Assembly: GCA_913043025.1 (NCBI GenBank)
Contig: CAJWLM010000010.1
Span: 1-64,000 of the forward strand
Origin: an uncultured Rhodospirillaceae bacterium
Lineage (GTDB): Bacteria; Pseudomonadota; Alphaproteobacteria; UBA8366
Reading direction: 5' to 3'
Length of the DNA stretch: 64,000 nt
The number at the start of each line of letters is the position of its first letter. Positions within the stretch are counted from its first letter, which is position 1. Of the stretch, positions 2,023-17,693 are shown one piece after another. The notes under the pieces are model-generated. The model saw only the letters and a list, made by a program, of their open reading frames with translations. It had not been told where the DNA came from and ran no database searches. Made by a program: the position numbers and the translations under genes.

Positions 2023-2637
2023 TCAGATAACTGCGGTAAAATTTAAAGTAATTTTACTATCATCTAATGTATGCAGTAAGTCTCTATGCCTTAAATTACT
2101 ATTGAATATCATCAACTGGCCTTCTGTAGGATGATACGCAATGTTTTCTATGTTGTATTCATTACTCTCCGTTACTGGAACAGAAATCATTTTTTCTGCG
2201 GCAGGTGAGTCAAAAACAATTTTTGCAGAACCTTTCGGGGCCTTTAGAATATAAATTCCAGAAAAAAGACTGTTAGGATGCACATGTACATCAGTCGAGC
2301 AGTTTTTTTCAAATAAATTAATCCACATATTCTTGATAAATACATTATTATTTGGTAAGTATACTCCAACATACTTTGCAAACTGTATTAATTCTCCTGC
2401 GATTATTTGGCTCAAATCCAAAAATTCAGGTAGCATGTGCAACTCGTTATTATTCTCTATTGTTGTATATAACGCGCATGCCCAATCATTCGGGCGACTG
2501 TTTGGCGTACTGCTGTGAATTAGATCAACCGCTGGCAGTAACGTTTTTCTTATGTCTTTATGATCAGGAATGTTAGAGATCTGCACCGGACAGGGAAACA
2601 GTTCTAAGTATCTAGTGTGGGGTGTTAAATCTATCAT
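2023..2637 (-). CDS. Putative 2OG-Fe(II) oxygenase (TIGR02466/PF13759-like), type A copy 1
   Basis: TPNSRPNDWACALYTT, VHVHPNSLFSGIYILKAP, GQLMIFNSNLRHR; paralogous to the next three genes. Confidence 0.75.
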   Translation of the reverse strand: MIDLTPHTRYLELFPCPVQISNIPDHKDIRKTLLPAVDLIHSSTPNSRPNDWACALYTTIENNNELHMLPEFLDLSQIIAGELIQFAKYVGVYLPNNNVFIKNMWINLFEKNCSTDVHVHPNSLFSGIYILKAPKGSAKIVFDSPAAEKMISVPVTESNEYNIENIAYHPTEGQLMIFNSNLRHRDLLHTLDDSKITLNFTAVI

Positions 2638-2644
2638 TATGGCC

Positions 2645-3289
2645 TCACATAGTCGCGTTGAAAGATACGCTTATGCGTTCACCCTCTGAGGCATTTACTT
2701 GAACCGAGTGTCGTAAGCTACTGTCAAAAATTACCAAGTCACCAGGCTGAGGTGAATATGATGCAACTACGTTGTTATAGGGGGTATCTCTCTCAATAGG
2801 TGGTCTGATCATAGTATCAGCCTGGTAAGAGTGGAAAAGAATATTAGAACAGTTTGGCGGTGCCTTAACATAATAAACGCCAGTCATAATGTGATTGGCA
2901 TGATTGTGAATCTCCTGACTCATGCCGTGCTGGTATATGTTTACCCAACATTGGGTAATTCGCAAATTATTTTCAGCCAATGGATAAGCCATCGTTTCTC
3001 CAAATTTTTTTAGGCCTTCCATCAAAAAATTAGTAAGTTCCTGAAATGCAGGACGTTCATGAAGATTACAGTTATTTGATATTGTTGTGTAGACATCACA
3101 CGCCCAAGAGGCGGGTTTACCATTTGGTGTTTCTGTTCGGATTTGATCCAGTTCTTGTATCATAGCGTCACAAAGTATTTTTGAATTAGGTGCGCGGGTC
3201 AATTGGATAGGAACTTTAAACAAGTCCTCTACAACGCGCTCTATTTTCACAGGAGACGCTGATTTACTGTTGTCAGGAGTGAGCGGCAT
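2645..3289 (-). CDS. Putative 2OG-Fe(II) oxygenase (TIGR02466/PF13759-like), type B copy 1
   Basis: TPNGKPASWACDVYTT, SQEIHNHANHIMTGVYYVKAPPNCS, GDLVIFDSSLRHSV, GERISVSFNA. Confidence 0.78.
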   Translation of the reverse strand: MPLTPDNSKSASPVKIERVVEDLFKVPIQLTRAPNSKILCDAMIQELDQIRTETPNGKPASWACDVYTTISNNCNLHERPAFQELTNFLMEGLKKFGETMAYPLAENNLRITQCWVNIYQHGMSQEIHNHANHIMTGVYYVKAPPNCSNILFHSYQADTMIRPPIERDTPYNNVVASYSPQPGDLVIFDSSLRHSVQVNASEGERISVSFNATM

Positions 3290-3408
3290 GCTTCGCCTTT
3301 CAAGGATTGTGCTTAATCAGTTTAATATTTCTACACAGCACAGACCAGTGAGTAAAATGTCGCTGTTACTGGGAAAAATTCTCAATATAAAAGAGATCAA
3401 TGTTTAAA

Positions 3409-4038
3409 TTATAAAGTGCATGTGAAGCCTATTGAAATTCTCTCCTCATCAGCATTGTGAAGTAAAACACGATGTTTCAGGTGGCTATTAAAAATTATTA
3501 AATCACCTTCGCTCATTTTAAAGCCGGCCTGACGCATGTTGTATTGATTACTTTCCTTTATCGGTGGGGTTATCATTTGTTCAGAAGAAGGAGAGTCAAA
3601 GGCAAGTAAACCAGAATCATATGGAACTTTTACGAAGTAAACACCAGTAAATAATGAGTTTGGGTGACAGTGTTGATCCATTGAGTCTTTAAATTTAAAC
3701 TTATTAATCCACATATTGTCAATGAAAAGATCTTTATTATTTTTATCAATACAATTTATACTTGCAAAAACCTCAATTTCTGCAACGACAAAATCAGTCA
3801 ATTCACTAAAGCTAGGTTCATTCATTAGTTGATTTCTATTGCCCGCCGTTGTGTAAAGGTTACCTGCCCAACGGCGAGGTTTACTGTTTGGTGTTGTCCG
3901 ACAAATTTCTTTGATAGCTGCCAACAATGTCGAGTTTAATTTCTCAAAATTGGACGGCTTAGAGATTTGTATGGTTTGTGGGAAATATTCTAATATTGTC
4001 GATGGTAATTCGTACATTTTTCGGTCAGAAACGCGCAT
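3409..4038 (-). CDS. Putative 2OG-Fe(II) oxygenase (TIGR02466/PF13759-like), type A copy 2
   Basis: TPNSKPRRWAGNLYTT, DQHCHPNSLFTGVYFVKVP, GDLIIFNSHLKHRVLLH, EERISIGF; overlaps the upstream gene by 14 nt. Confidence 0.75.
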   Translation of the reverse strand: MRVSDRKMYELPSTILEYFPQTIQISKPSNFEKLNSTLLAAIKEICRTTPNSKPRRWAGNLYTTAGNRNQLMNEPSFSELTDFVVAEIEVFASINCIDKNNKDLFIDNMWINKFKFKDSMDQHCHPNSLFTGVYFVKVPYDSGLLAFDSPSSEQMITPPIKESNQYNMRQAGFKMSEGDLIIFNSHLKHRVLLHNADEERISIGFTCTL

Positions 4039-4636
4039 TGAACGAAAGGCTAATGCGCTCTCCTTTTATGTCGTTTGTTGGAACTGAGTGTCGAAGTGCA
4101 CTATCAAAAAAAATGAGGTCGCCGGGTTCTGGGTGCAAGGACGCAACAGGGTTGTTGAGTTCGTTTTCCTCGTAAACAGCAGGACGTATCAACACGTCAG
4201 CAAAGTGCGAATGAAATAAAATCTCCGAACAGTTAACCGGCGCCTTTAGGTAATAAACACCAGTCATGATATTGTTGGGGTGATGGTGTATTTCCTGGCT
4301 CATGCCGAAATTGTAGATGTTCACCCAGCACTGCGTTATTTCAAGGCTTTCGACGGTAAAATCATATCCCATCGCTTGGCCAAATTGCATAAACCCCTCG
4401 CGCATTAATAGATCGAAATCATGAAATCCGGGGCGTTCATGAAGCCTGTTGTTGTTAGTCAGTGTTGTGTAAACATCACATGCCCAACTATCCGGCTTCC
4501 CATTTGGTGTGGTTATGCTTACTTGCTCAATCTCGGCGACAAGTTTCTCATTGAGTGAGGCCGCATTTGGAACTTTGATGAGCATAACTGGAACAGGAAA
4601 TAACTTTTGGTAAGCACGGGCCGGAACTTTGGACAC
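4025..4636 (-). CDS. Putative 2OG-Fe(II) oxygenase (TIGR02466/PF13759-like), type B copy 2
   Basis: TPNGKPDSWACDVYTT, SQEIHHHPNNIMTGVYYLKAPVNCS, GDLIFFDSALRHSV, GERISLSFNA. Confidence 0.78.
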   Translation of the reverse strand: MSKVPARAYQKLFPVPVMLIKVPNAASLNEKLVAEIEQVSITTPNGKPDSWACDVYTTLTNNNRLHERPGFHDFDLLMREGFMQFGQAMGYDFTVESLEITQCWVNIYNFGMSQEIHHHPNNIMTGVYYLKAPVNCSEILFHSHFADVLIRPAVYEENELNNPVASLHPEPGDLIFFDSALRHSVPTNDIKGERISLSFNARF

Positions 4637-6008: not shown

Positions 6009-8711
6009 TTATGCAGCCTTTAAAAGGGCTTGCCGCAAACAGTAGTGCAACATGCCACCGTTGTTAAAATATTCTAACTCCACTTCTGTATCTAGGCGGC
6101 AGCGAAGTTGAATAGTCTGCTGATTACCGTTTGCCCGTGTAATTTTACACTCGATATCCTGACGGGGAGTTAACCCTACGGACAAACCGGCTATGTCAAA
6201 TTTCTCTGAGCCATTTAAGTCAAGCGTTTTTCGTGTTTCACCATCCTTAAATTGAAGAGGAAGAACACCCATCCCAATTAAATTTGAACGGTGGATGCGT
6301 TCTAAATTTTCTGCGATAACGGCCCGTATACCCAACAGCTTTGTTCCTTTAGCTGCCCAATCACGCGAAGATCCGGTCCCGTAGGCTTGAGCGCCGACAA
6401 CAACAAGCGGAACGCCATCAGCTTTGTATTTCATTGCAGCATCGAAGACACTCATCTCTTCCCCATCAGGCCAATGACGGGTAAATCCACCTTCTTTTCC
6501 GTCAACCATCTCGTTTTTAAATCGTATATTCCCAAATGTTCCACGCATCATGACCTCATGATTTGTGCGGCGCGCACCATATGTATTGAAATCCTTTTGC
6601 TCCACGCCCTTTGACAAGAGATATCGTCCTGCTGAGTGCCCTTCTGGTATGACGCTTATTGGTGAAATATGATCCGTAGTAGTCATATCACCCGCCATTA
6701 TGAGGCAGCGGGCTCCTCTAATATCCTCTAATTTTGGCAGTTGTATCTGCATGCCTTCGAATAAAGGGGGTCGTTTGATATATTCACTATTCTCTGGCCA
6801 CTTAAATTCTATACCGTCATCAGTTTCCATCGCCTGCCACTCTGGCGTACCCTCGTATATTGACCCATAACGCTTTCGGAACATTTTTGGCGTAATTACT
6901 TCATCTATAATACTCTCAACTTCTTTTGAAGACGGCCAAATATCATGAAGAAAAACATCATTACCTTCCGCGTCTTGGCCAAGAGGATCAGTGGTAAGAT
7001 TTATTTCAAGAGAACCTGCAAGGGCATAAGCAACAACCAACGGAGGGGATGCTAAATAGTTCGCGCGGCATTGAGGATGGACACGTCCTTCAAAATTTCG
7101 ATTTCCAGATAGAACAGCTCCTACGATAAGGTCATGTTCATCAATGGTATCTTCAATTGATGCCTCAAGTGGGCCGGAATTACCCATGCAAGTCACACAA
7201 CCAAAACCCACTATATTAAAACCAAGAGCATCGAGGTCTTTCTGGACACCAGCTGCTTCAAAATAATCTGCTACAACACGTGAACCAGGCGATATTGACG
7301 CTTTTACCCATGGTTTGCGTTTAAGTCCTATCAGTCTTGCATTGCGTGCCAGTAAGCCTGCAGCCAACATAACTGCCGGGTTTGACGTGTTGGTACAGCT
7401 TGTGATTGCGGCAATCATAACCTTGCCATGGCTGAGTTCGAAATCCCTCCCGGGTACATTCACAGCTTTGATTTCTGCACTTCCGCACATATCCTCTAAT
7501 GTAGTATTAAAGTTTTCTGGAATTTGACTGAGAAGAGTTTTTTGGTTTGGCCTGGAGGGTCCTGCCATGCAAGGTTCGATATCACTTAAGTCTATTTCAA
7601 CGATGTCCGTGTAAATTGGTTCTTTTTCAGTCGGATCCCTCCACAGACCTTGCAACTTCGCATAAGTCTCCACCAGATCGATTTGCTCCTCTGACCTACC
7701 GGATACCCGCAAGTAATCTAATGTTTTGGTATCAATCGGTGAGAATCCCATAGTCGCGCCATACTCGGGAGACATATTTCCCAAGGTTGCCCGGTTTGTG
7801 GCGCTCATTTCATCAAGGCCCGGTCCACAATACTCAACAAAATTTTGCACCACACCGTGATCGCGAAGCATTTGCGTTGCCGTTAATGCGACATCAGTAG
7901 GCGTTGATGCGGGACCTAGTTCACCAATTAATTTACAACCAACTACGTCCGGTACCAGCATCGATATCGGTTGGCCAAGCATTGCGGTGCCACCTTCAAG
8001 ACCACCTACGCCCCAGCCAAACACTGATATTCCGTTGACCATAGTGGTATGACTGTCCATGCCCAAAAGGCTGTCAGGTATAGCGCATAGCTCGCCATCT
8101 ATTTCACGCCCAGTTACAACGTTGGCAATGTATTCTATGTTAACTTGGTGGAGGATGCCCGCACCTGGCGGAACAATTCTTACATTTTCGAACGCTTGTG
8201 CAGCCCATTTCAAAAAGGAATAGCGTTCACCGTTTCGTTCATATTCTAGGGCTACATTTTGTTGTAGAGCATCTTCGGTACCATGAAAGTCTGCTATCAC
8301 GGAGTGATCGATGACAACATCAACCGGTATGAGTGGATTAATTGAATTAGGATCACCGCCTAATTCAGATACTGCATCGCGCATTGCTGTTAATTCGACC
8401 AGTAGTCCCATATTGACGTCAGGCATGAGTATTCGAGCGGGGTAGAAATTAATCTCCCTCGCTTTTCGGTGGCCGCTGTTACTTTTTTTTGTCTCGGACA
8501 CCCATTTGCCAAGCGATACGATATCATCTGCAGTTACTGAAATTCCATCTTCATTTCGAAGCATATTTTCTGCCAGAACTTTGAGTGAGTAGGGAAGGTT
8601 GGATAGATTTCCCGCCCCATTTTCTTCCGCCGCCCTTATACTGAAGTAACTGTATTTCTTACCATCTACATTGAATGCTCTTTTGCAATCAAAGCTATTG
8701 ATGTTTGCCAT
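6009..8711 (-). CDS. acnA: Aconitate hydratase
   Basis: 900 aa; SCTNTSNPAVMLAAGLLARNA, GFGCVTCMGNSGPL, LSGNRNFEGRVHP, GSSRDWAAKGTKLLG. Confidence 0.97.
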   Translation of the reverse strand: MANINSFDCKRAFNVDGKKYSYFSIRAAEENGAGNLSNLPYSLKVLAENMLRNEDGISVTADDIVSLGKWVSETKKSNSGHRKAREINFYPARILMPDVNMGLLVELTAMRDAVSELGGDPNSINPLIPVDVVIDHSVIADFHGTEDALQQNVALEYERNGERYSFLKWAAQAFENVRIVPPGAGILHQVNIEYIANVVTGREIDGELCAIPDSLLGMDSHTTMVNGISVFGWGVGGLEGGTAMLGQPISMLVPDVVGCKLIGELGPASTPTDVALTATQMLRDHGVVQNFVEYCGPGLDEMSATNRATLGNMSPEYGATMGFSPIDTKTLDYLRVSGRSEEQIDLVETYAKLQGLWRDPTEKEPIYTDIVEIDLSDIEPCMAGPSRPNQKTLLSQIPENFNTTLEDMCGSAEIKAVNVPGRDFELSHGKVMIAAITSCTNTSNPAVMLAAGLLARNARLIGLKRKPWVKASISPGSRVVADYFEAAGVQKDLDALGFNIVGFGCVTCMGNSGPLEASIEDTIDEHDLIVGAVLSGNRNFEGRVHPQCRANYLASPPLVVAYALAGSLEINLTTDPLGQDAEGNDVFLHDIWPSSKEVESIIDEVITPKMFRKRYGSIYEGTPEWQAMETDDGIEFKWPENSEYIKRPPLFEGMQIQLPKLEDIRGARCLIMAGDMTTTDHISPISVIPEGHSAGRYLLSKGVEQKDFNTYGARRTNHEVMMRGTFGNIRFKNEMVDGKEGGFTRHWPDGEEMSVFDAAMKYKADGVPLVVVGAQAYGTGSSRDWAAKGTKLLGIRAVIAENLERIHRSNLIGMGVLPLQFKDGETRKTLDLNGSEKFDIAGLSVGLTPRQDIECKITRANGNQQTIQLRCRLDTEVELEYFNNGGMLHYCLRQALLKAA

Positions 8712-8723
8712 GATTTGATTTTC

Positions 8724-9587
8724 CTAGTCTGAGTATTTATCGTCTAATTGCATATAATGTGGTGTGTTAACTGCCTCCTCACGATCTTGGAATGAGGCCA
8801 TCATATTCATATATTTTTCCGTGTGACCAACTTTGAGGATCTCCTCGGCCATAAGCTTCATTGTATGCATTGCTGCTCGTTGCAAATCTCCCGGTGCTAT
8901 CATGAGATTAAAGCCAAGTTCTTCGAGAGCTTTTTTTTCTAATACAGGCGATTTTCCAGACCAAAACATATTATAGAGCAAAGGAACGTCTTTAAATTCC
9001 TCCGAAATCTTTTTTAATTCTTCCAATGACGTTGGCGCTTCCACAAATGCTACATCTGCACCTGCCTCCATGTACTTATGCATTCGCTCTATTGCGCTAT
9101 TTACCCCTTCGATAGCAAGAGAGTCTGTCCGAGCAATGACAACAAAATCAGGATCTAATTGATTATCTTTTATTGCCCTAATCTTCGCTACTAATTCTTC
9201 AACGGGCACCACGGTTTTGTTATCTAGATGCCCGCAGCGTTTCGGAAATGTCTGGTCCTCTATATGAAAGCCGGCAATTCCCGTCCGCTCAAAGCGCTTA
9301 AGCTCGTGCAACGCATTTAATACATTTCCATATCCGGTGTCGAAATCACCGATTACTGGTATCTCCACTGCATCGACCATTTGAGTAAGCCGATCCTCGA
9401 TTTGGAAAGGGTTTAACATCCCCATGTCCGGTATGCCCGTTGATCGTGCGATTCCACCACCGGTTGCATAAACAATTTCTGCGCCGGCAGCCTGGACTAT
9501 CCTCGCTGACATTCCGTCATATGCGCCTGGTACTAAAAAAGTTTTACTTGTTTCAAGTAATTTTCGAAGCTTGGTTGTGGCACGCAT
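8724..9587 (-). CDS. Isocitrate lyase/PEP mutase superfamily protein (2-methylisocitrate lyase-like)
   Basis: PVIGDFDTGYGN, FHIEDQTFPKRCGHLDNK; TIM-barrel ICL/PEPM signature KRCGH. Confidence 0.88.
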   Translation of the reverse strand: MRATTKLRKLLETSKTFLVPGAYDGMSARIVQAAGAEIVYATGGGIARSTGIPDMGMLNPFQIEDRLTQMVDAVEIPVIGDFDTGYGNVLNALHELKRFERTGIAGFHIEDQTFPKRCGHLDNKTVVPVEELVAKIRAIKDNQLDPDFVVIARTDSLAIEGVNSAIERMHKYMEAGADVAFVEAPTSLEELKKISEEFKDVPLLYNMFWSGKSPVLEKKALEELGFNLMIAPGDLQRAAMHTMKLMAEEILKVGHTEKYMNMMASFQDREEAVNTPHYMQLDDKYSD

Positions 9588-9747
9588 GAATCAATTCCCC
9601 TCGGCAATGACGTTTTAATATGGAAAAACCGAGTGCGCATAAACGCCGCCCGATACCCGTATGTTATCGCATGAGCAATTAATTGGAGCAATGGCGTATA
9701 GGTTCTGATTCGATGGTTAATTTAGAATTAGCCGGGTTTAAAGAATA

Positions 9748-10617
9748 TTACTCTGCTGAATATTTTTTTTCTAAATTACGCATCATGGTCAAACCTCCAA
9801 TTTCCCAAACCTCGTCTAAAGGCATAAGAGAGGACGTTACCGATTTACTATCGCCAGTCTCGTAAATTTTTTGGAGGGTTTCTTTGGTTGCTTTTGCTGT
9901 TGCTAAGAGTGGTTGTGCATAGAAACAGTCAAGCTTAAATCCCATCTCATGCACTTCTTTTGAGGTAAGTATTGGTACCATGGGACTTGGGCTATGATTG
10001 TAAAGCAAAGGTATCCGTTTTTTAAAATGGTCTGCAATTGTGCGTGTGTGGTCAAGATTATCAGCTACCTCACAGAACAACATGTCAGCACCAGCATCTA
10101 TATAGGCATCGCCACGTTGCAACACTGATTCAAGGCCTTCAACTAGATAAGCGTCGCAGCGAGCGATGAGGACGAAATTTTTATCGTTAACAGCATCTTT
10201 TGCTGCTCGAATTTTTTGAATCATTTCATTTTTTGGTATTACTGATTTGCCCGTCATATGGCCACACCTTTTGGGCCATGTTTGGTCTTCAATATGAATA
10301 CCAGCTACTCCGGCTGATTCGAAGGCTCTTACAGTTCGCTGTGTATTAAGGGCATTTCCGTAACCGTTGTCAGCATCGACAATTACAGGAATGTTTACTG
10401 CTTGAGCTATATACCGTGCATTGGTGACCATTTCATCCATGGATAGCAGGCCAATATCTGGGTAGCCCCTGCATACCGCGGTCCCGGCACCAGTAACAAC
10501 GCAAAGTTCAAAGCCTACCTGTTCAACTAATTGCGCGGTCATTGCGTCATGAGCGCCGCCAGCTAGGATAAGACTATCCCGTTTAAGCAAATTACGCAGC
10601 TTTTCTGTCACCGTCAT
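9748..10617 (-). CDS. Isocitrate lyase/PEP mutase superfamily protein, second copy
   Basis: PVIVDADNGYGN, IHIEDQTWPKRCGHMTGK; start set at MTVTEKLRN rather than the longer ORF start, which overlaps the upstream gene. Confidence 0.87.
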   Translation of the reverse strand: MTVTEKLRNLLKRDSLILAGGAHDAMTAQLVEQVGFELCVVTGAGTAVCRGYPDIGLLSMDEMVTNARYIAQAVNIPVIVDADNGYGNALNTQRTVRAFESAGVAGIHIEDQTWPKRCGHMTGKSVIPKNEMIQKIRAAKDAVNDKNFVLIARCDAYLVEGLESVLQRGDAYIDAGADMLFCEVADNLDHTRTIADHFKKRIPLLYNHSPSPMVPILTSKEVHEMGFKLDCFYAQPLLATAKATKETLQKIYETGDSKSVTSSLMPLDEVWEIGGLTMMRNLEKKYSAE

Positions 10618-10621
10618 CTGA

Positions 10622-11179
10622 TTAAGCAGGCAAAGGGGTTTTGTCGTTTCCGTCTGGAATCTCAACATCAAAATTATTTAAGACGGAACCTATCAACCCA
10701 TAAAAACCGCAAAGGCAATTAAGTTCTATTACCCCATCTGGCCCAAACTCCCTTAGTGCGTCTGAAAATATATGGTCCGGCGTTCTAAGGTCATTAGCAA
10801 GCATGCCAGTTACAAATTTATAAACAAGCTTCTCTTGCTCGTTATCGAATGCTGGCTCTGTGCGTTCTGCAATGGCGTCACAAACATGCGGAGAAATTCC
10901 TTCCTTCTCTCCTATGCGACGATGGGCATGCCATTCATACTGGGCTGTCCAGTGTCGTGCAGTAATTATTATAGCAAGTTCTCGCAAATTGCCTGGCAAA
11001 ACGCCATCAAACCGAAGTTGTGCTCCTACTTTTTGAATTAAATTACCTACAGCTGGATGATGTAGAAGGGGCACGAAAGGCCCTCGTAATTCACCGCGGG
11101 GACTTGCAACTATCTGATCACGATAGGCTTCCTGATCTGGATTAAGGTTTTCAATGTCGACCTTAGGGAGACGGCTCAT
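10622..11179 (-). CDS. Carboxymuconolactone decarboxylase (AhpD-like) family protein
   Basis: RELAIIITARHWTAQYEWHAHRRIGEKEGI matches the CMD fold signature. Confidence 0.8.
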   Translation of the reverse strand: MSRLPKVDIENLNPDQEAYRDQIVASPRGELRGPFVPLLHHPAVGNLIQKVGAQLRFDGVLPGNLRELAIIITARHWTAQYEWHAHRRIGEKEGISPHVCDAIAERTEPAFDNEQEKLVYKFVTGMLANDLRTPDHIFSDALREFGPDGVIELNCLCGFYGLIGSVLNNFDVEIPDGNDKTPLPA

Positions 11180-11290: not shown

Positions 11291-12808
11291 CTATTCGGTA
11301 GTTTTAGGAGAGCGCAACAGTAAAAGAAGGGGCATAAGCGCGATTACGGCAAACATCATTATCGTGAAGTCATGAATATAAGCAATAAATTGAGCCTCCG
11401 CATCAATCACTTCTTCAAAATTAGTGAGACCCGCGGCATCCTCTAAATCCCAATTTTCAGGCAACAAAGAATGTCTTAATCGTTCGTTATATAAACTAGC
11501 ATTTTCGGAAAGACTTTGGCGGGCTGTATGGGTTGACCGAACCAAGAGCAAGAATAGAACGGAAACACCGATGGAAGAGGCTATTCTTCGAATAAGACTC
11601 AGAATGACGGAAGCGTCGGGTCGTAATGATGCAGGTATGTTTTGGAATGCTGCGGTTACTGCGGCAGTGGACATGAAACCTAACCCAAAGCCTTGCACCA
11701 GTATTGCCAACATAATCGGTAAGGGGCCTGTTTCCCTGGAGAGCTCAGAAAGCATCCAAGAGGAAAGAGCGAGACTTAGCATTCCGAGAAAAAGTATTGG
11801 GCGTGGATTGAATCGTTGCAGTAATAATCCGCAACAAAATGCAGCTACCATTGTTCCGATACCACGCGGTGTCATAAGCATGCCAGCATCCATAGGTGGG
11901 TAGCCGAGATGGTTTTGGAGAATCGGAGGTATTAGCCCTACATAACCCCACATTGTGAAGTTCAGGATAAATCCAAAAATGGCACCTACTATAAAATCAC
12001 GATTTCTCAAAACCGCTGGATTCAAATATGCATTTCGTGTTGAGAAACAATGGATTGCAAAAACCCAAAAAGCCGATGCGGCAATGATAGAGTAAAATAT
12101 AATTTCAGGAGAATCGAACCAATCACGACGTTGACCATTATCAAGCATTAATTGAAAGGCGCCGACACAGATTGCTAAAAGGAAAAAACCAAATAAATCA
12201 AATCTCTTTGATCCTTCAGGTTTGTCAGTGGGTACGAGTGTATGCATCATGACTAAAGCGGTAAGGCCCAGCGGGATATTCATTAAATAAACTACTTGCC
12301 AACCGAAGAATTCAGTTAAAACTCCCCCAACTAATGGGCCAATAACCACTGCACTCATTCGCCCTGTTTGGAGCCAACCAAATGCCTTTCCATGTTGATC
12401 GGCCGGAAAGGTGGCAAGTACAACTTGTATTGTAAGGGGATTTAGGCCTGCAGCAAAACAACCTTGAAGGAACCTAAAGGCAACAATTTCTGGTATGCTT
12501 GATGATTGGGATACCAATGTTGAGAATAAAAGGAATCCGCAAATTACGAATATATAAAGCCTTTTACGGCCAAGCTTTCGTGCCAACCACGCGTAAACTG
12601 GCGTAAACATTGCGGCAGCAACAAGATAGGCGGTGAGCACCCACGAAACTTCTGTTATGGTAGCGGATAAAGCGCCTTGCATCTGCGGCAATGCTACACC
12701 TGTAGCAAAACTGTCCATACCCTGCATTGCCCCGGCGGGTATTGTCGACAAGGCAATGAGTAATTTTTGGCGTTCAGATAGCCTAACTTGTGTTTTAGTT
12801 GCTGCCAT
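11291..12808 (-). CDS. MFS transporter, DHA2 (EmrB-like, 14-TM) family, array copy 1
   Basis: GMDSFATGVALPQMQGALSATITEVSWVLTAYLVAAAMFTPVYAWLARKLGRKRLY. Confidence 0.9.
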   Translation of the reverse strand: MAATKTQVRLSERQKLLIALSTIPAGAMQGMDSFATGVALPQMQGALSATITEVSWVLTAYLVAAAMFTPVYAWLARKLGRKRLYIFVICGFLLFSTLVSQSSSIPEIVAFRFLQGCFAAGLNPLTIQVVLATFPADQHGKAFGWLQTGRMSAVVIGPLVGGVLTEFFGWQVVYLMNIPLGLTALVMMHTLVPTDKPEGSKRFDLFGFFLLAICVGAFQLMLDNGQRRDWFDSPEIIFYSIIAASAFWVFAIHCFSTRNAYLNPAVLRNRDFIVGAIFGFILNFTMWGYVGLIPPILQNHLGYPPMDAGMLMTPRGIGTMVAAFCCGLLLQRFNPRPILFLGMLSLALSSWMLSELSRETGPLPIMLAILVQGFGLGFMSTAAVTAAFQNIPASLRPDASVILSLIRRIASSIGVSVLFLLLVRSTHTARQSLSENASLYNERLRHSLLPENWDLEDAAGLTNFEEVIDAEAQFIAYIHDFTIMMFAVIALMPLLLLLRSPKTTE

Positions 12809-13043
12809 TAAGAAAATTTAGCTTAACTTTAGTATTTATGACATCTCAGAAATCTAGCTTGCCAAAACCTTAGTGCCAAGTTGAAGGCATTCATTTTTAA
12901 CAATCGCTAGTTATTTTTCGGCTCCTGTTCCGTCCATTTGTCTGAAAAATGGTCCGTTTATATTCATTAACATACCTCCAGATAGTCAACCAAGCCTTTG
13001 GAAACATGAGGCAGCGGTAGAAGGCACAGATTAAATATTTCGA

Positions 13044-14567
13044 CTATTTAACGTTTTTTTTTGTATCAAGTCGCATCAAAAATACAAGCGGGAAGAGACA
13101 TAATAAAATTACAGCCATCAGCTGGAAATCGAATAAGAAGCCCAGAAATTCAGCTTCTTTTTCAACAAGTCGGTTTAAATGGAAGGCTCCAGACTGCTCG
13201 TCTGGGTTCCAGCTTTCGGGAACTGTGAGCTCTCTTAGGCGTTCAGGTGCGATATGTATAGTTAGGCCGTTACGTACTGACTGCGTTTTATGGACAAGCA
13301 CACTGACGAGTATCGAAATACCTATCGAAGTGCCGAGCCTGCGTGCGAGTGAGTTCATCACTGTCGCATCAGGTCGCAGTGCGGGGTCAAGGCTGGTAAA
13401 AGCGCAGGCAGTGATTGGAACCGTAAAGGCTCCTATGCCAAAACCCTGAAGAATAACAATTAACATAATGTAGTGAATCGGCGCGTCGGCAGTAATTAAA
13501 GATAGGAGCCACATAGAGCCTGACATAGAGACCAATCCAAGAGTAACTGTTGGGCGGGGGTCGCGCCCATTCAGAAGCCATCCGGCTACCGAGGCACCTA
13601 TTATTGATCCAATTCCCCGCATCGCCATAACTATTCCGGCGCTCGTCGGGGGATGGCCCATGTGATCTTGAATCACTTTTGGTAGCAGCCCTGCCATGCC
13701 ATAAATCATGAACCCGAGTGCGAACACCAGAACCAGTCCAATAAAAAAATCCCTGTTCATAAAGACATGCGGATCGATATAGGTATTTTTTGCAGTTGAG
13801 ACGTGAACAGAAAACAGATAAATGCCAATTGCTGAAAGAGCAGCGAATACAATTATTGTATTACTTTCAAACCACTCCATACGCTCACCCTGATCGAGCA
13901 TTAACTGAAGAAATAGTATAGCTATGCTGAGGGTAATAAAACCAAACATGTCAAACTTTGATGCCTTGATAACACCTCCCTCCGGAATATGGCGAGCCAC
14001 GAGGTAAAAAGCCGCCAATGTAACTGGAATGTTAGCCCAAAAAACCCAGCGCCAGTCCAACCATTCGGTAAGAAAACCACCTACAATAGGGCCTAGCATT
14101 ACGCCGGTCATTCTGCCGTTTGACATCCAGCTGAAAGCCTGTGGGTGCAGCTTCCTAGGGTAGGCGGCTAATAGTACCTGCTGCGCGAGAGGATTTAGGC
14201 CGGCTGAAAATGCCCCTTGAATAAACCTGTATACAACTAATTCGAGCAAGGTATTTGAGGTAGATACAAGTAAGGTGCTGCCTATAAACCCTGTTATAGT
14301 AATAAGAAGGAGTTTTTTTCTACCAAGCCTTTTACTTGCCCATCCAAACAATGGCATGAAGATAGCGGCTGCAACCAGATATGAAGTCAGCACCCAAGAA
14401 ATTTCTGTAATCGTTGCAGAAAAATTACCTTGCATAATAGGAATAGCAACAGAGACTGCAAAAGTATCCATGCCTTGCATAGAACCGCAAGGAACTATTG
14501 CGACTGCAACCCAAAAGCGTTCTTTTGCCGGCAGATGAGTAGGTCGTTTGCTGTCAACATCGGGCAT
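13044..14567 (-). CDS. MFS transporter, DHA2 (EmrB-like, 14-TM) family, array copy 2
   Basis: GMDTFAVSVAIPIMQGNFSATITEISWVLTSYLVAAAIFMPLFGWASKRLGRKKLL. Confidence 0.9.
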   Translation of the reverse strand: MPDVDSKRPTHLPAKERFWVAVAIVPCGSMQGMDTFAVSVAIPIMQGNFSATITEISWVLTSYLVAAAIFMPLFGWASKRLGRKKLLLITITGFIGSTLLVSTSNTLLELVVYRFIQGAFSAGLNPLAQQVLLAAYPRKLHPQAFSWMSNGRMTGVMLGPIVGGFLTEWLDWRWVFWANIPVTLAAFYLVARHIPEGGVIKASKFDMFGFITLSIAILFLQLMLDQGERMEWFESNTIIVFAALSAIGIYLFSVHVSTAKNTYIDPHVFMNRDFFIGLVLVFALGFMIYGMAGLLPKVIQDHMGHPPTSAGIVMAMRGIGSIIGASVAGWLLNGRDPRPTVTLGLVSMSGSMWLLSLITADAPIHYIMLIVILQGFGIGAFTVPITACAFTSLDPALRPDATVMNSLARRLGTSIGISILVSVLVHKTQSVRNGLTIHIAPERLRELTVPESWNPDEQSGAFHLNRLVEKEAEFLGFLFDFQLMAVILLCLFPLVFLMRLDTKKNVK

Positions 14568-14571
14568 GCTC

Positions 14572-16158
14572 TTACCTATTCTTATTTGCCGATTTCGTGT
14601 ATTTGGGATGCTCCTCCATTTCGCCCGGCGGCTTAATTCGTAAAACCAGTACTAGCGGTAGTAACAAAAACATTAAAAGTGTCATAAGCCGAAAATCGTG
14701 CAGATAAGCAATAAATTCCGCCTGCTTATCTATGACCTTTTCCATAGATAATAAACCAGGCAAGCTATCTAGATCCCATTTTTCTGGCAATGGTAGGTGT
14801 TTAAAAAGCTCATTATGGGCGGTATAATTCTCGCTGAGGACTTGTCTTGCACTTTGTGTTGATCGAGCAAGCTGTGTTACCAAAACTGATACGCCAATAG
14901 CCGATCCTAGGCGTCTAAACAAACTCAGGACCGACGTCCCGTCAGCGCGCTGAGATGGTGACATTGATTGGAAAGCTACCGTCGTTAGCGATACTGAAAG
15001 AAACCCAAACCCTGCTCCTTGTATAAATAATGCTAGAGAGATGTATACGGCATTGACATCAGGAGTGAAAAAAGACAACCAGCAGGTTGATCCACCTATA
15101 CAGCATATACCGAGCGCCGAGATAGGCCGAGCGGAATATTTCATTAGCATTGCGCCCGCGACAAGTGAGGAAACCATCGTGCCTATGCCTCGTGGTACCA
15201 TCAGGAAACCAGTGGAAATAACTGGGTAGCCCATGTGGTTCTGCAATATTGGAGGAATTAATCCTGCGTAACCGAAAACCATAAAATTGAGCAGAAATCC
15301 AAAGAGCAGTCCTATTAGGAATTCACGATTGGCAAAAACTCTCGGATTTAGGAAAGGATTGCGGCTCAAAAAAATATGACCCACAAATAAATATAGTGCG
15401 CCAGCAGATAGCAACGTTGCACCGATGATTTCTATTGAGTCGAACCAACCAAGTGTCTGACCTTGGTCAAGAGCATATTGTAGCGCAAGGATAGCGATCC
15501 CGAGTATGAGAAAACCAAAAATATCGAATTTTTTGGTATTCTCGGGATGTCCGCGTGGTACGTAAAGATAAACCAGATATGCTGCTAGCATTCCAAGGGG
15601 GATGTTTGTAAGGAATACAAAACGCCAGGAGAAGTATTCCGTCATAATGCCGCCTAATAATGGGCCAACAATGATGCCGCTCATTCGCCCGGTTGTTAAC
15701 CAACCGAATGCTATTCCCTGTTGACTGACAGGAAATGTCGCCAGGACAATCTGCATGAGTAGTGGATTAAAACCCGCTCCAAAAAATCCTTGGCAGAAGC
15801 GGAAAAAAATTATTTCTTCAAGGCTATCCGATTGAGCGATCAAGCCGGCACATGAGCAGAATCCAACAATTATTATTAGAAATAATTTTCGACGTCCGAC
15901 ACGCCGTGCGAGCCATCCATACATGGGTGTGAAAACAGTTGCGGCTACCAAGAAGGCAGTAAGGATCCAGGAGATTTCAAGTAAGGTTGCTGATAAAACC
16001 CCTTGCATGCGTGGTAACGCTACGCCCACAGCAAAAGTATCCATACCCGTGATCATTCCGGCCGGCAAAATACCAATGACCACGGCAATGCGTTGCCGAG
16101 GTGATAGTAAAACCCCTTCTTCTTCGGACTCCTGTTTAGATTCTGATTTTGCCATCAT
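14572..16158 (-). CDS. MFS transporter, DHA2 (EmrB-like, 14-TM) family, array copy 3
   Basis: GMDTFAVGVALPRMQGVLSATLLEISWILTAFLVAATVFTPMYGWLARRVGRRKLF. Confidence 0.9.
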   Translation of the reverse strand: MMAKSESKQESEEEGVLLSPRQRIAVVIGILPAGMITGMDTFAVGVALPRMQGVLSATLLEISWILTAFLVAATVFTPMYGWLARRVGRRKLFLIIIVGFCSCAGLIAQSDSLEEIIFFRFCQGFFGAGFNPLLMQIVLATFPVSQQGIAFGWLTTGRMSGIIVGPLLGGIMTEYFSWRFVFLTNIPLGMLAAYLVYLYVPRGHPENTKKFDIFGFLILGIAILALQYALDQGQTLGWFDSIEIIGATLLSAGALYLFVGHIFLSRNPFLNPRVFANREFLIGLLFGFLLNFMVFGYAGLIPPILQNHMGYPVISTGFLMVPRGIGTMVSSLVAGAMLMKYSARPISALGICCIGGSTCWLSFFTPDVNAVYISLALFIQGAGFGFLSVSLTTVAFQSMSPSQRADGTSVLSLFRRLGSAIGVSVLVTQLARSTQSARQVLSENYTAHNELFKHLPLPEKWDLDSLPGLLSMEKVIDKQAEFIAYLHDFRLMTLLMFLLLPLVLVLRIKPPGEMEEHPKYTKSANKNR

Positions 16159-17693
16159 TTAGTTCCAGACTTTTTATTTGGAGATCGTTCCGTACTCCGG
16201 AATAATAGTATTAGAGGCATCATGAGTAATATCACTATGCCAAGAACACGAAAGTCGAAAAGGTAAGCGATGAACTCAGCTTGCCTTGTCACCTCTTTAT
16301 CAAGCGCGGCCATGCCTTGAACATTGGTTAAACTCCAACTGTCAGGCAACTGTTTATGGCGAAAAATTTCATTCATTTGACTTATGTTAGCACCCAGTAT
16401 CTCATGGTTACGCTGAGTATTTCGGGCGAGCATTCCAACAAGTACTGAGACCCCAACGCTGGAGCCAATCTTTCTCATTAAGCTCATAAATGCTGTTGCT
16501 TCGGCACGGTGTTCTGCAGGAAGCGTAGCAAATGTCATTGAATTTCCTGATACGAAGAAAAGCCCGAAACCAAAGCCTTGAATAATTATTGCGGAAATGA
16601 AGTGCCAGGTTGCTGTCTCGGGTGTGAAGCCAGCCATCATCCAGAGTGATAAGGACATCAGTGACATTCCAAATGCGCAGATCCATTTTGGGTTGAACCG
16701 GATCATAAGCCTTCCAGCGGTAGTAGAGGCTAATGCGGTTGCAATTCCGCGAGGGGCAAGGATAAGTCCAATTGTCAGAACTGGAACATCCATTAGTCTG
16801 TTTAAAAAGGATGGAATTAGGCCCGTAAGTCCGACAAGCGTTACCCCATGCATGGTAGTTAAACATAATCCGAGAACTAAATTACGGTTTTTAAAAATGG
16901 CGGGTTCGACAAACGGCTCTTTCGAGGTCATTATGTGCACAATAAAAAGGTAGAGTGCGAGGCAGGCCGCAGAAAGCTCAAGCAAGATCTCGGGCGACTG
17001 GAACCAGTCAAGTTTATTTCCCCTATCCAGCATAAGTTGTGTAGCACCAAGACAAATTGTGAGAAGGATGAACCCGAACCAATCGAAAGGTCGTTTTTCA
17101 TTATCATTGCTCTCAGGTACAAAAATGAAAATCAATAACATGGCGAGGGTAGCTATCGGAATATTCACGTAAAAATTCCAACGCCAAGATAGAAATTCAG
17201 TAAGTATTCCACCAAGTGTTGGGCCGCAAATTGCGCTAAACATCACTCCAAAGGACCACCAGCTGATTGCGATTCCGTGTTCTTCGCGTGGGAATATGTC
17301 GAGAAGGATATGCATGGAAAGGGGCACAAGGGCAGCACCAAAGACGCCCTGTGTAAAACGATAGGCTACCATTTCATTAATTCCATCAGCTCCACCAGCA
17401 AGCATTGAACAGACAATAAAACCACCTATCACAATTAGAAAAAGTCGCTTGCGACCGAATTTACGACCAAGCCAGCTAACTGGCGGTGTGGCAATGGCAA
17501 CCGCTATGAGATAGGATGTTAATATCCAAGATGCTTCCTCAAAAGTAAGCGATAGTGAGCCCCGTATATGCGGAAGCGCGACTGCGGCAAGCATTGTATC
17601 CATGCCTTGCAGGCCAGCACCCATAACCGCAGCTATAGTTATTATTCCGCGGCGGGGAACAGAATGAGTGATTTCTCTTGTGGTTTTAGACAT
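16155..17693 (-). CDS. MFS transporter, DHA2 (EmrB-like, 14-TM) family, array copy 4
   Basis: GMDTMLAAVALPHIRGSLSLTFEEASWILTSYLIAVAIATPPVSWLGRKFGRKRLF; 4-nt overlap with the next gene. Confidence 0.9.
   Translation of the reverse strand: MSKTTREITHSVPRRGIITIAAVMGAGLQGMDTMLAAVALPHIRGSLSLTFEEASWILTSYLIAVAIATPPVSWLGRKFGRKRLFLIVIGGFIVCSMLAGGADGINEMVAYRFTQGVFGAALVPLSMHILLDIFPREEHGIAISWWSFGVMFSAICGPTLGGILTEFLSWRWNFYVNIPIATLAMLLIFIFVPESNDNEKRPFDWFGFILLTICLGATQLMLDRGNKLDWFQSPEILLELSAACLALYLFIVHIMTSKEPFVEPAIFKNRNLVLGLCLTTMHGVTLVGLTGLIPSFLNRLMDVPVLTIGLILAPRGIATALASTTAGRLMIRFNPKWICAFGMSLMSLSLWMMAGFTPETATWHFISAIIIQGFGFGLFFVSGNSMTFATLPAEHRAEATAFMSLMRKIGSSVGVSVLVGMLARNTQRNHEILGANISQMNEIFRHKQLPDSWSLTNVQGMAALDKEVTRQAEFIAYLFDFRVLGIVILLMMPLILLFRSTERSPNKKSGTK

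Follow-up and report, generated by a model that had tools for sequence, protein, structure and literature searches.

The window, a stretch of 64,000 nucleotides of contig CAJWLM010000010.1 from an uncultured Rhodospirillaceae bacterium, carries at positions 2023–4636 four open reading frames on the same (−) strand, transcribed in the order B'-A'-B-A. The first gene, B' (4025–4636, 203 aa), has a GTG start and encodes a PF13759/TIGR02466 oxygenase. It is followed by the A-subtype paralogue A' (3409–4017), a spacer of 119 nt (3290–3408), the catalytic-type paralogue B (2645–3289, 214 aa) and, as the final gene, a second A-subtype paralogue, A (2023–2637, 204 aa). The original prediction of four adjacent same-strand genes for putative 2OG-Fe(II) oxygenases was confirmed by profile searches, in which all four proteins (203–214 aa) matched both PF13759 (58–88 bits, cut-off 27 bits) and TIGR02466 (80–113 bits, cut-off 62.5 bits) over their full length; PHROG 81 was matched by all four as well. 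The two alternating subtypes proposed by eye are real, with identities of 56% for B and B', 43% for A and A' and 33% for every A-B combination, and the motifs listed for them were found, except for the IF in B', which reads FFDSALRH. The spacing of 7 nt between B and A and of 119 nt between the pairs was also as described, whereas the reported 14-nt overlap of B' and A' holds only if A' begins at the first ATG of its open reading frame (3409–4038, 209 aa). That upstream ATG (4038) falls inside the B' coding sequence. The ATG at 4017 is the better start, because it aligns with the start of A and leaves a 7-nt gap (TGA-CCGAAAA-ATG) like that of the B-A junction. When the quartet region was scanned for promoters and terminators, matches around the 119-nt spacer were no more frequent than expected by chance.

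The quartet is kept, with conserved flanks, in the window genome (G000) and in two congeners (G001 and G002). The window genome holds 13 PF13759 matches. A second, different PF13759 tandem of this genome was found on contig C13 (L103:1839–4885), where two adjacent, slightly overlapping ORFs of 513–514 aa combine TPR repeats with a C-terminal PF13759 domain.

Distribution of the BA Pair

Seven genomes, all from a single order of marine Alphaproteobacteria, carry the BA pair at four or more locus types between them, a recurrence that the original prediction had missed. All A-clade genes (17/17) lie on the same strand as, and directly downstream of, a B gene, with a gap of 4–28 nt and B always first. 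In the sister genus (G005 and G009), a single BA pair occupies the locus orthologous to the quartet. The other loci hold pair 2 (G001, G002, G005 and G009), pair 3 (G000, G005 and G009) and pair 4 (G014 and G036, from a different family within the order). A remnant of pair 2 was also detected in the window genome (L091:4483–4866, contig C9), in which B ends just after the HxH motif and A is absent; the flanking genes are syntenic with those of the intact pair 2 in G001 and G002, and pair 2 has thus decayed as a unit in this genome.

Within the order, A was carried by 7 of the 44 genomes searched. A survey of the class, scoring at most eight candidates per genome, gave B-like matches in 83 of 385 genomes, and among the 82 genomes other than G000 a tandem was present only in G228. 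This tandem is an unrelated local duplication of two genes that are 55% identical and both HHHR at the active site. No further tandem was found in a survey of the phylum. A scan of 84,980 genomes, made with a narrower A alignment since A1 and A2 are too divergent for some pattern scans, showed A proper to be confined to this group, together with distant cyanobacterial homologues. Beyond the order, relatives of these genes nearly always stand alone, which is true of the wider family but not of the A clade.

Phylogeny and Origin

In the maximum likelihood tree, the A clade was monophyletic (SH-aLRT/UFBoot 97.7/92) and its internal order largely mirrored that of the partner B genes. Monophyly of A (98) and of pair-B (95) was also obtained in a larger tree of 99 sequences, to which homologues from viruses, cyanobacteria and other Alphaproteobacteria had been added; the viral homologues fell outside A and pair-B, and a phage origin of A was rejected on this ground. 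The tree joined A with A' and B with B', as had been anticipated for the duplication of an ancestral BA pair, and the opposing topology of two separate local duplications (A with B, A' with B') was 101.6 log-likelihood units worse and was rejected (p-AU 7.9e-5). Trees in which the locus-1 genes were constrained to group were likewise rejected by the AU test (p = 0.0012), as was an in-place origin of pairs 2, 3 and 4 (p = 0.0001, 0.013 and 0.0015, respectively), so that an own-locus origin of any pair was rejected (p-AU 0.00008–0.013). The distances among A proteins were strongly correlated with those among their B partners, with a Mantel r of 0.965 for the 17 pairs (0 of 20,000 permutations as high), 0.91 for nine representatives and 0.82 when each locus type was represented by one pair, a value reached only by the identity among 120 orderings. 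Taken with the tree and the AU tests, this correlation indicates that A and B split once in an ancestor and that the pair was then duplicated as a whole at least three times. Two independent enzymes encoded on one transcript would produce the same correlation and co-duplication.

The downstream pair of the window (B and A) grouped with the sister genus, whose single B is the nearest relative of the window B. This grouping was well supported on the A side (97.1/98) and weaker on the B side (77.4/89), where it was missing from the B-only tree. The position of this pair suggests that the two window pairs probably diverged before the genera separated and that B'-A' was probably lost in the sister genus.

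Active-Site Residues and Selection

The metal site of other 2OG oxygenases carries an HxD motif, with which the HxH of the present proteins would align, a correspondence based in part on a partial PF13640 match. The metal- and 2OG-binding tetrad (H-x-H...H...R) was read after all sequences had been aligned to one model. It was complete in every readable pair-B and in the solitary B of the order, and HHHR was found in 28 of 29 alphaproteobacterial solitary homologues and 92 of 94 viral homologues. In the window, the tetrad is intact in B, B' and A', and A has Lys in place of the 2OG-site Arg (HHHK); the orthologues of this A in G001 and G002 read HNHK. Of the A proteins of the other pairs, those of pair 2 have HHHR, those of pair 3 FDRL or HDRQ and those of pair 4 HNNH; in pairs 3 and 4, neither the distal metal-binding His nor the Arg remains. 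With the full tetrad retained, A' and the pair-2 A may be active enzymes. In some oxygenases Lys substitutes for Arg in 2OG binding, and the HHHK protein of the window may also be active.

The dN/dS values of A were 0.10–0.25 in most comparisons with unsaturated dS, usually about 1.5–2 times those of the partner B; several between-genus comparisons were left out on account of saturated dS. Between G000 and G002, values of 0.10–0.13 were obtained for A and 0.07 for B, and between G005 and G009 the pair-3 A, with no tetrad left, gave 0.18 and its B 0.09. The pair-4 A gave 0.16, at a dS near saturation. A is therefore under purifying selection despite the decay of its tetrad, and the idea of A as a pseudogene was ruled out by the intact ORFs and the low dN/dS.

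Structural Models

The AlphaFold models of B (pLDDT 86) and A' (pLDDT 82) showed a double-stranded beta-helix fold, and the best PDB matches of both in the fold search were 3bvc and 2rg4 (E values of 7e-12 to 1e-13). A sequence search of the PDB with B and A also ranked these entries first and gave no other convincing relative. Both are uncharacterised structures with two chains each, which fits, but does not prove, a homodimeric ancestor.

Genomic Context

The neighbourhoods of the pairs differ by locus type, and genes of 2-oxoacid, hydroxyacid or sugar-acid catabolism recur in them. Across the loci, the neighbours include sulfopyruvate decarboxylase subunits, D-2-hydroxyacid dehydrogenases, PrpB/PEP-mutase-like lyases, an acetolactate-synthase-like enzyme and a sugar-acid dehydratase-like member of the enolase superfamily, as well as an amino-acid-type ABC transporter and MlaE. 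No neighbouring gene was common to all locus types, and no dedicated third partner or regulator was conserved beside the pairs. The recurring acid-catabolism genes weakly favour a small-molecule substrate; that it is a small organic acid is a guess. At positions 6009–10671 of the window, an ORF of 900 aa, aconitase-like by eye, adjoins two PrpB/PEP-mutase-family lyases, both scoring under the curated cut-off for methylisocitrate lyase, and a third lyase of this family lies upstream of pair 3 (L081:5799–6656). In the sister genus, a split sulfopyruvate decarboxylase (ComD/ComE-like) lies close to pair 2 and is adjoined by a D-2-hydroxyacid dehydrogenase (L079:7537–8597). Another local gene expansion was noted on the − strand of the window at 11291–17693, consisting of a tandem of four full-length MFS transporters of 505–528 aa each.

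Proposed Roles of A and B

The explanation that we favour, with moderate confidence, is that catalysis belongs to B, while A serves as an auxiliary and often pseudo-enzymatic subunit, the BA unit having been duplicated whole. The tree, the adjacency and the conservation show that the window holds two paralogous copies of an ancestral B-A unit, whose two members form sister clades within the small TIGR02466/PF13759 2OG-Fe(II) oxygenases. Judging from the residues read in the sequence, B would bind Fe(II) through HxH...H and 2OG through the following Arg, and it would hydroxylate or otherwise oxidise a small molecule or a protein. A, presumably encoded on the mRNA of B and translated directly after it, would pair with B and shape, stabilise or complete its active site. 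At the level of the residues given above, A has moved from an active paralogue towards a pseudo-oxygenase in several lineages of the pair. The successive duplications of the unit presumably served different substrates. An A protein with a decayed site can act only through another protein, and its only constant neighbour is B, which points to B as the partner. The earlier idea that A and B act together receives indirect support from the co-duplication, the fixed order and the active-site decay in A; such joint action is likely, and a physical A-B heteromer is plausible. The variation in genomic context between locus types speaks against this explanation.

The residues retained in the window would also agree with a two-active-subunit enzyme or two sequential enzymes, in which A' and possibly A could be active. 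A and B might be independently acting oxygenases of one pathway, carrying out sequential oxidations or modifying two positions of a substrate and joined only as an operon, a reading that we consider rather unlikely. It draws on the full HHHR of A' and the pair-2 A, on same-strand tight spacing of the kind typical of metabolic operons and on the 2-oxoacid and sugar-acid catabolic genes nearby, but the A proteins of pairs 3 and 4 have been maintained beside B after the loss of the distal His and the Arg, so that catalysis cannot be the general role of A. Where A has lost its active site, the suggestion that the two proteins act on two sites of one substrate is disfavoured as well. Active-site decay with the rest of the protein under purifying selection would also be expected if A were a relative with a ligand-binding or regulatory role, such as a sensor of substrate or 2OG that tunes B, or a protein that binds a third one, with no fixed heteromer. 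This appears improbable, given that the pairs lack a conserved third partner or regulator and that the obligatory adjacency points to B. Neutral tandem duplication, leaving redundant copies with no joint function in a family-rich genome, draws on the precedent of the G228 tandem and on the 13 PF13759 matches of the window genome. It is nevertheless very improbable in view of the same B-A order at all the locus types, the mirrored trees, the purifying selection on A and the presence of the quartet in three genomes.

Comparison with Known Systems

2OG-Fe(II) oxygenases have usually been studied as single polypeptides or homo-oligomers. The BA system adds a new, two-component variant to a known enzyme family, TIGR02466/PF13759 (2OG-FeII_Oxy_5, including the cyanophage PHROG 81), with which the quartet shares scores above the cut-offs, the HxH...H...R signature (with Lys for Arg in A) and the 3bvc/2rg4 fold. 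Elsewhere, the family occurs as genes that stand alone, as TPR fusions or as phage genes with the tetrad intact, unlike the B-A pairs. For TIGR02466/PF13759, no description of the A clade or of the fixed B-A pair was found in the retrieved literature, and no substrate was found to be reported for TIGR02466, which is widespread in marine bacteria and cyanophages. A search of the open-access literature returned no bacterial heteromeric 2OG oxygenase, which is weak evidence of absence.

The precedent for A as an auxiliary subunit comes from fungal meroterpenoid biosynthesis, in which TlxI-TlxJ and TlxC-TlxA are heterodimeric Fe/2OG oxygenases that resemble the AndA homodimer, and TlxI, without the 2OG-binding Arg, supports the active TlxJ in the heterodimer (PMC12141560). 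Both systems consist of two homologous oxygenase-fold proteins from one locus (17/17 pairs for BA). The Arg missing from TlxI is present in A' and the pair-2 A, but the window A has Lys at this position and the A proteins of pairs 3 and 4 have lost the residue. The Tlx proteins, however, belong to a fungal natural-product pathway and another part of the superfamily, whereas the BA pairs lie in no biosynthetic cluster, and the heterodimer, proven for TlxI-TlxJ, is a prediction for BA. B and A are not of the TlxI/TlxJ subfamily, as judged from their PDB sequence relatives, and the only search that retrieved TlxI was the fold comparison of A' (E = 5e-7, 12% identity). For TlxI itself, a homodimer has been wrongly predicted by AF3 (PMC13311259), which calls for caution with complex predictions in such systems. 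Several oxygenase genes per genome, of the same superfamily and partly of the same Pfam family, are also found in cyanophages, such as S-SCSM1 with 24 2OG-Fe(II) oxygenase genes (PMC9602691). The phage copies lie outside both the A and the pair-B clade and have kept HHHR (92/94). One viral contig (L154:1638–6121) carries four PF13759-like genes, three of which follow one another directly.

It is possible, and put forward tentatively, that the pairs represent an obligate heteromeric family of bacterial 2OG-Fe(II) oxygenases, with a catalytic B and an auxiliary A derived from one ancestral duplication, pairs multiplied for different substrates and a stepwise transition of A from enzyme to pseudoenzyme visible between congeners (HHHK versus HNHK). 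If true, this series of co-duplicated pairs, with a partner that looks active in some lineages and dead in others, would allow a direct test of how an enzyme becomes an obligate helper, and the BA pairs would offer a first handle on TIGR02466.
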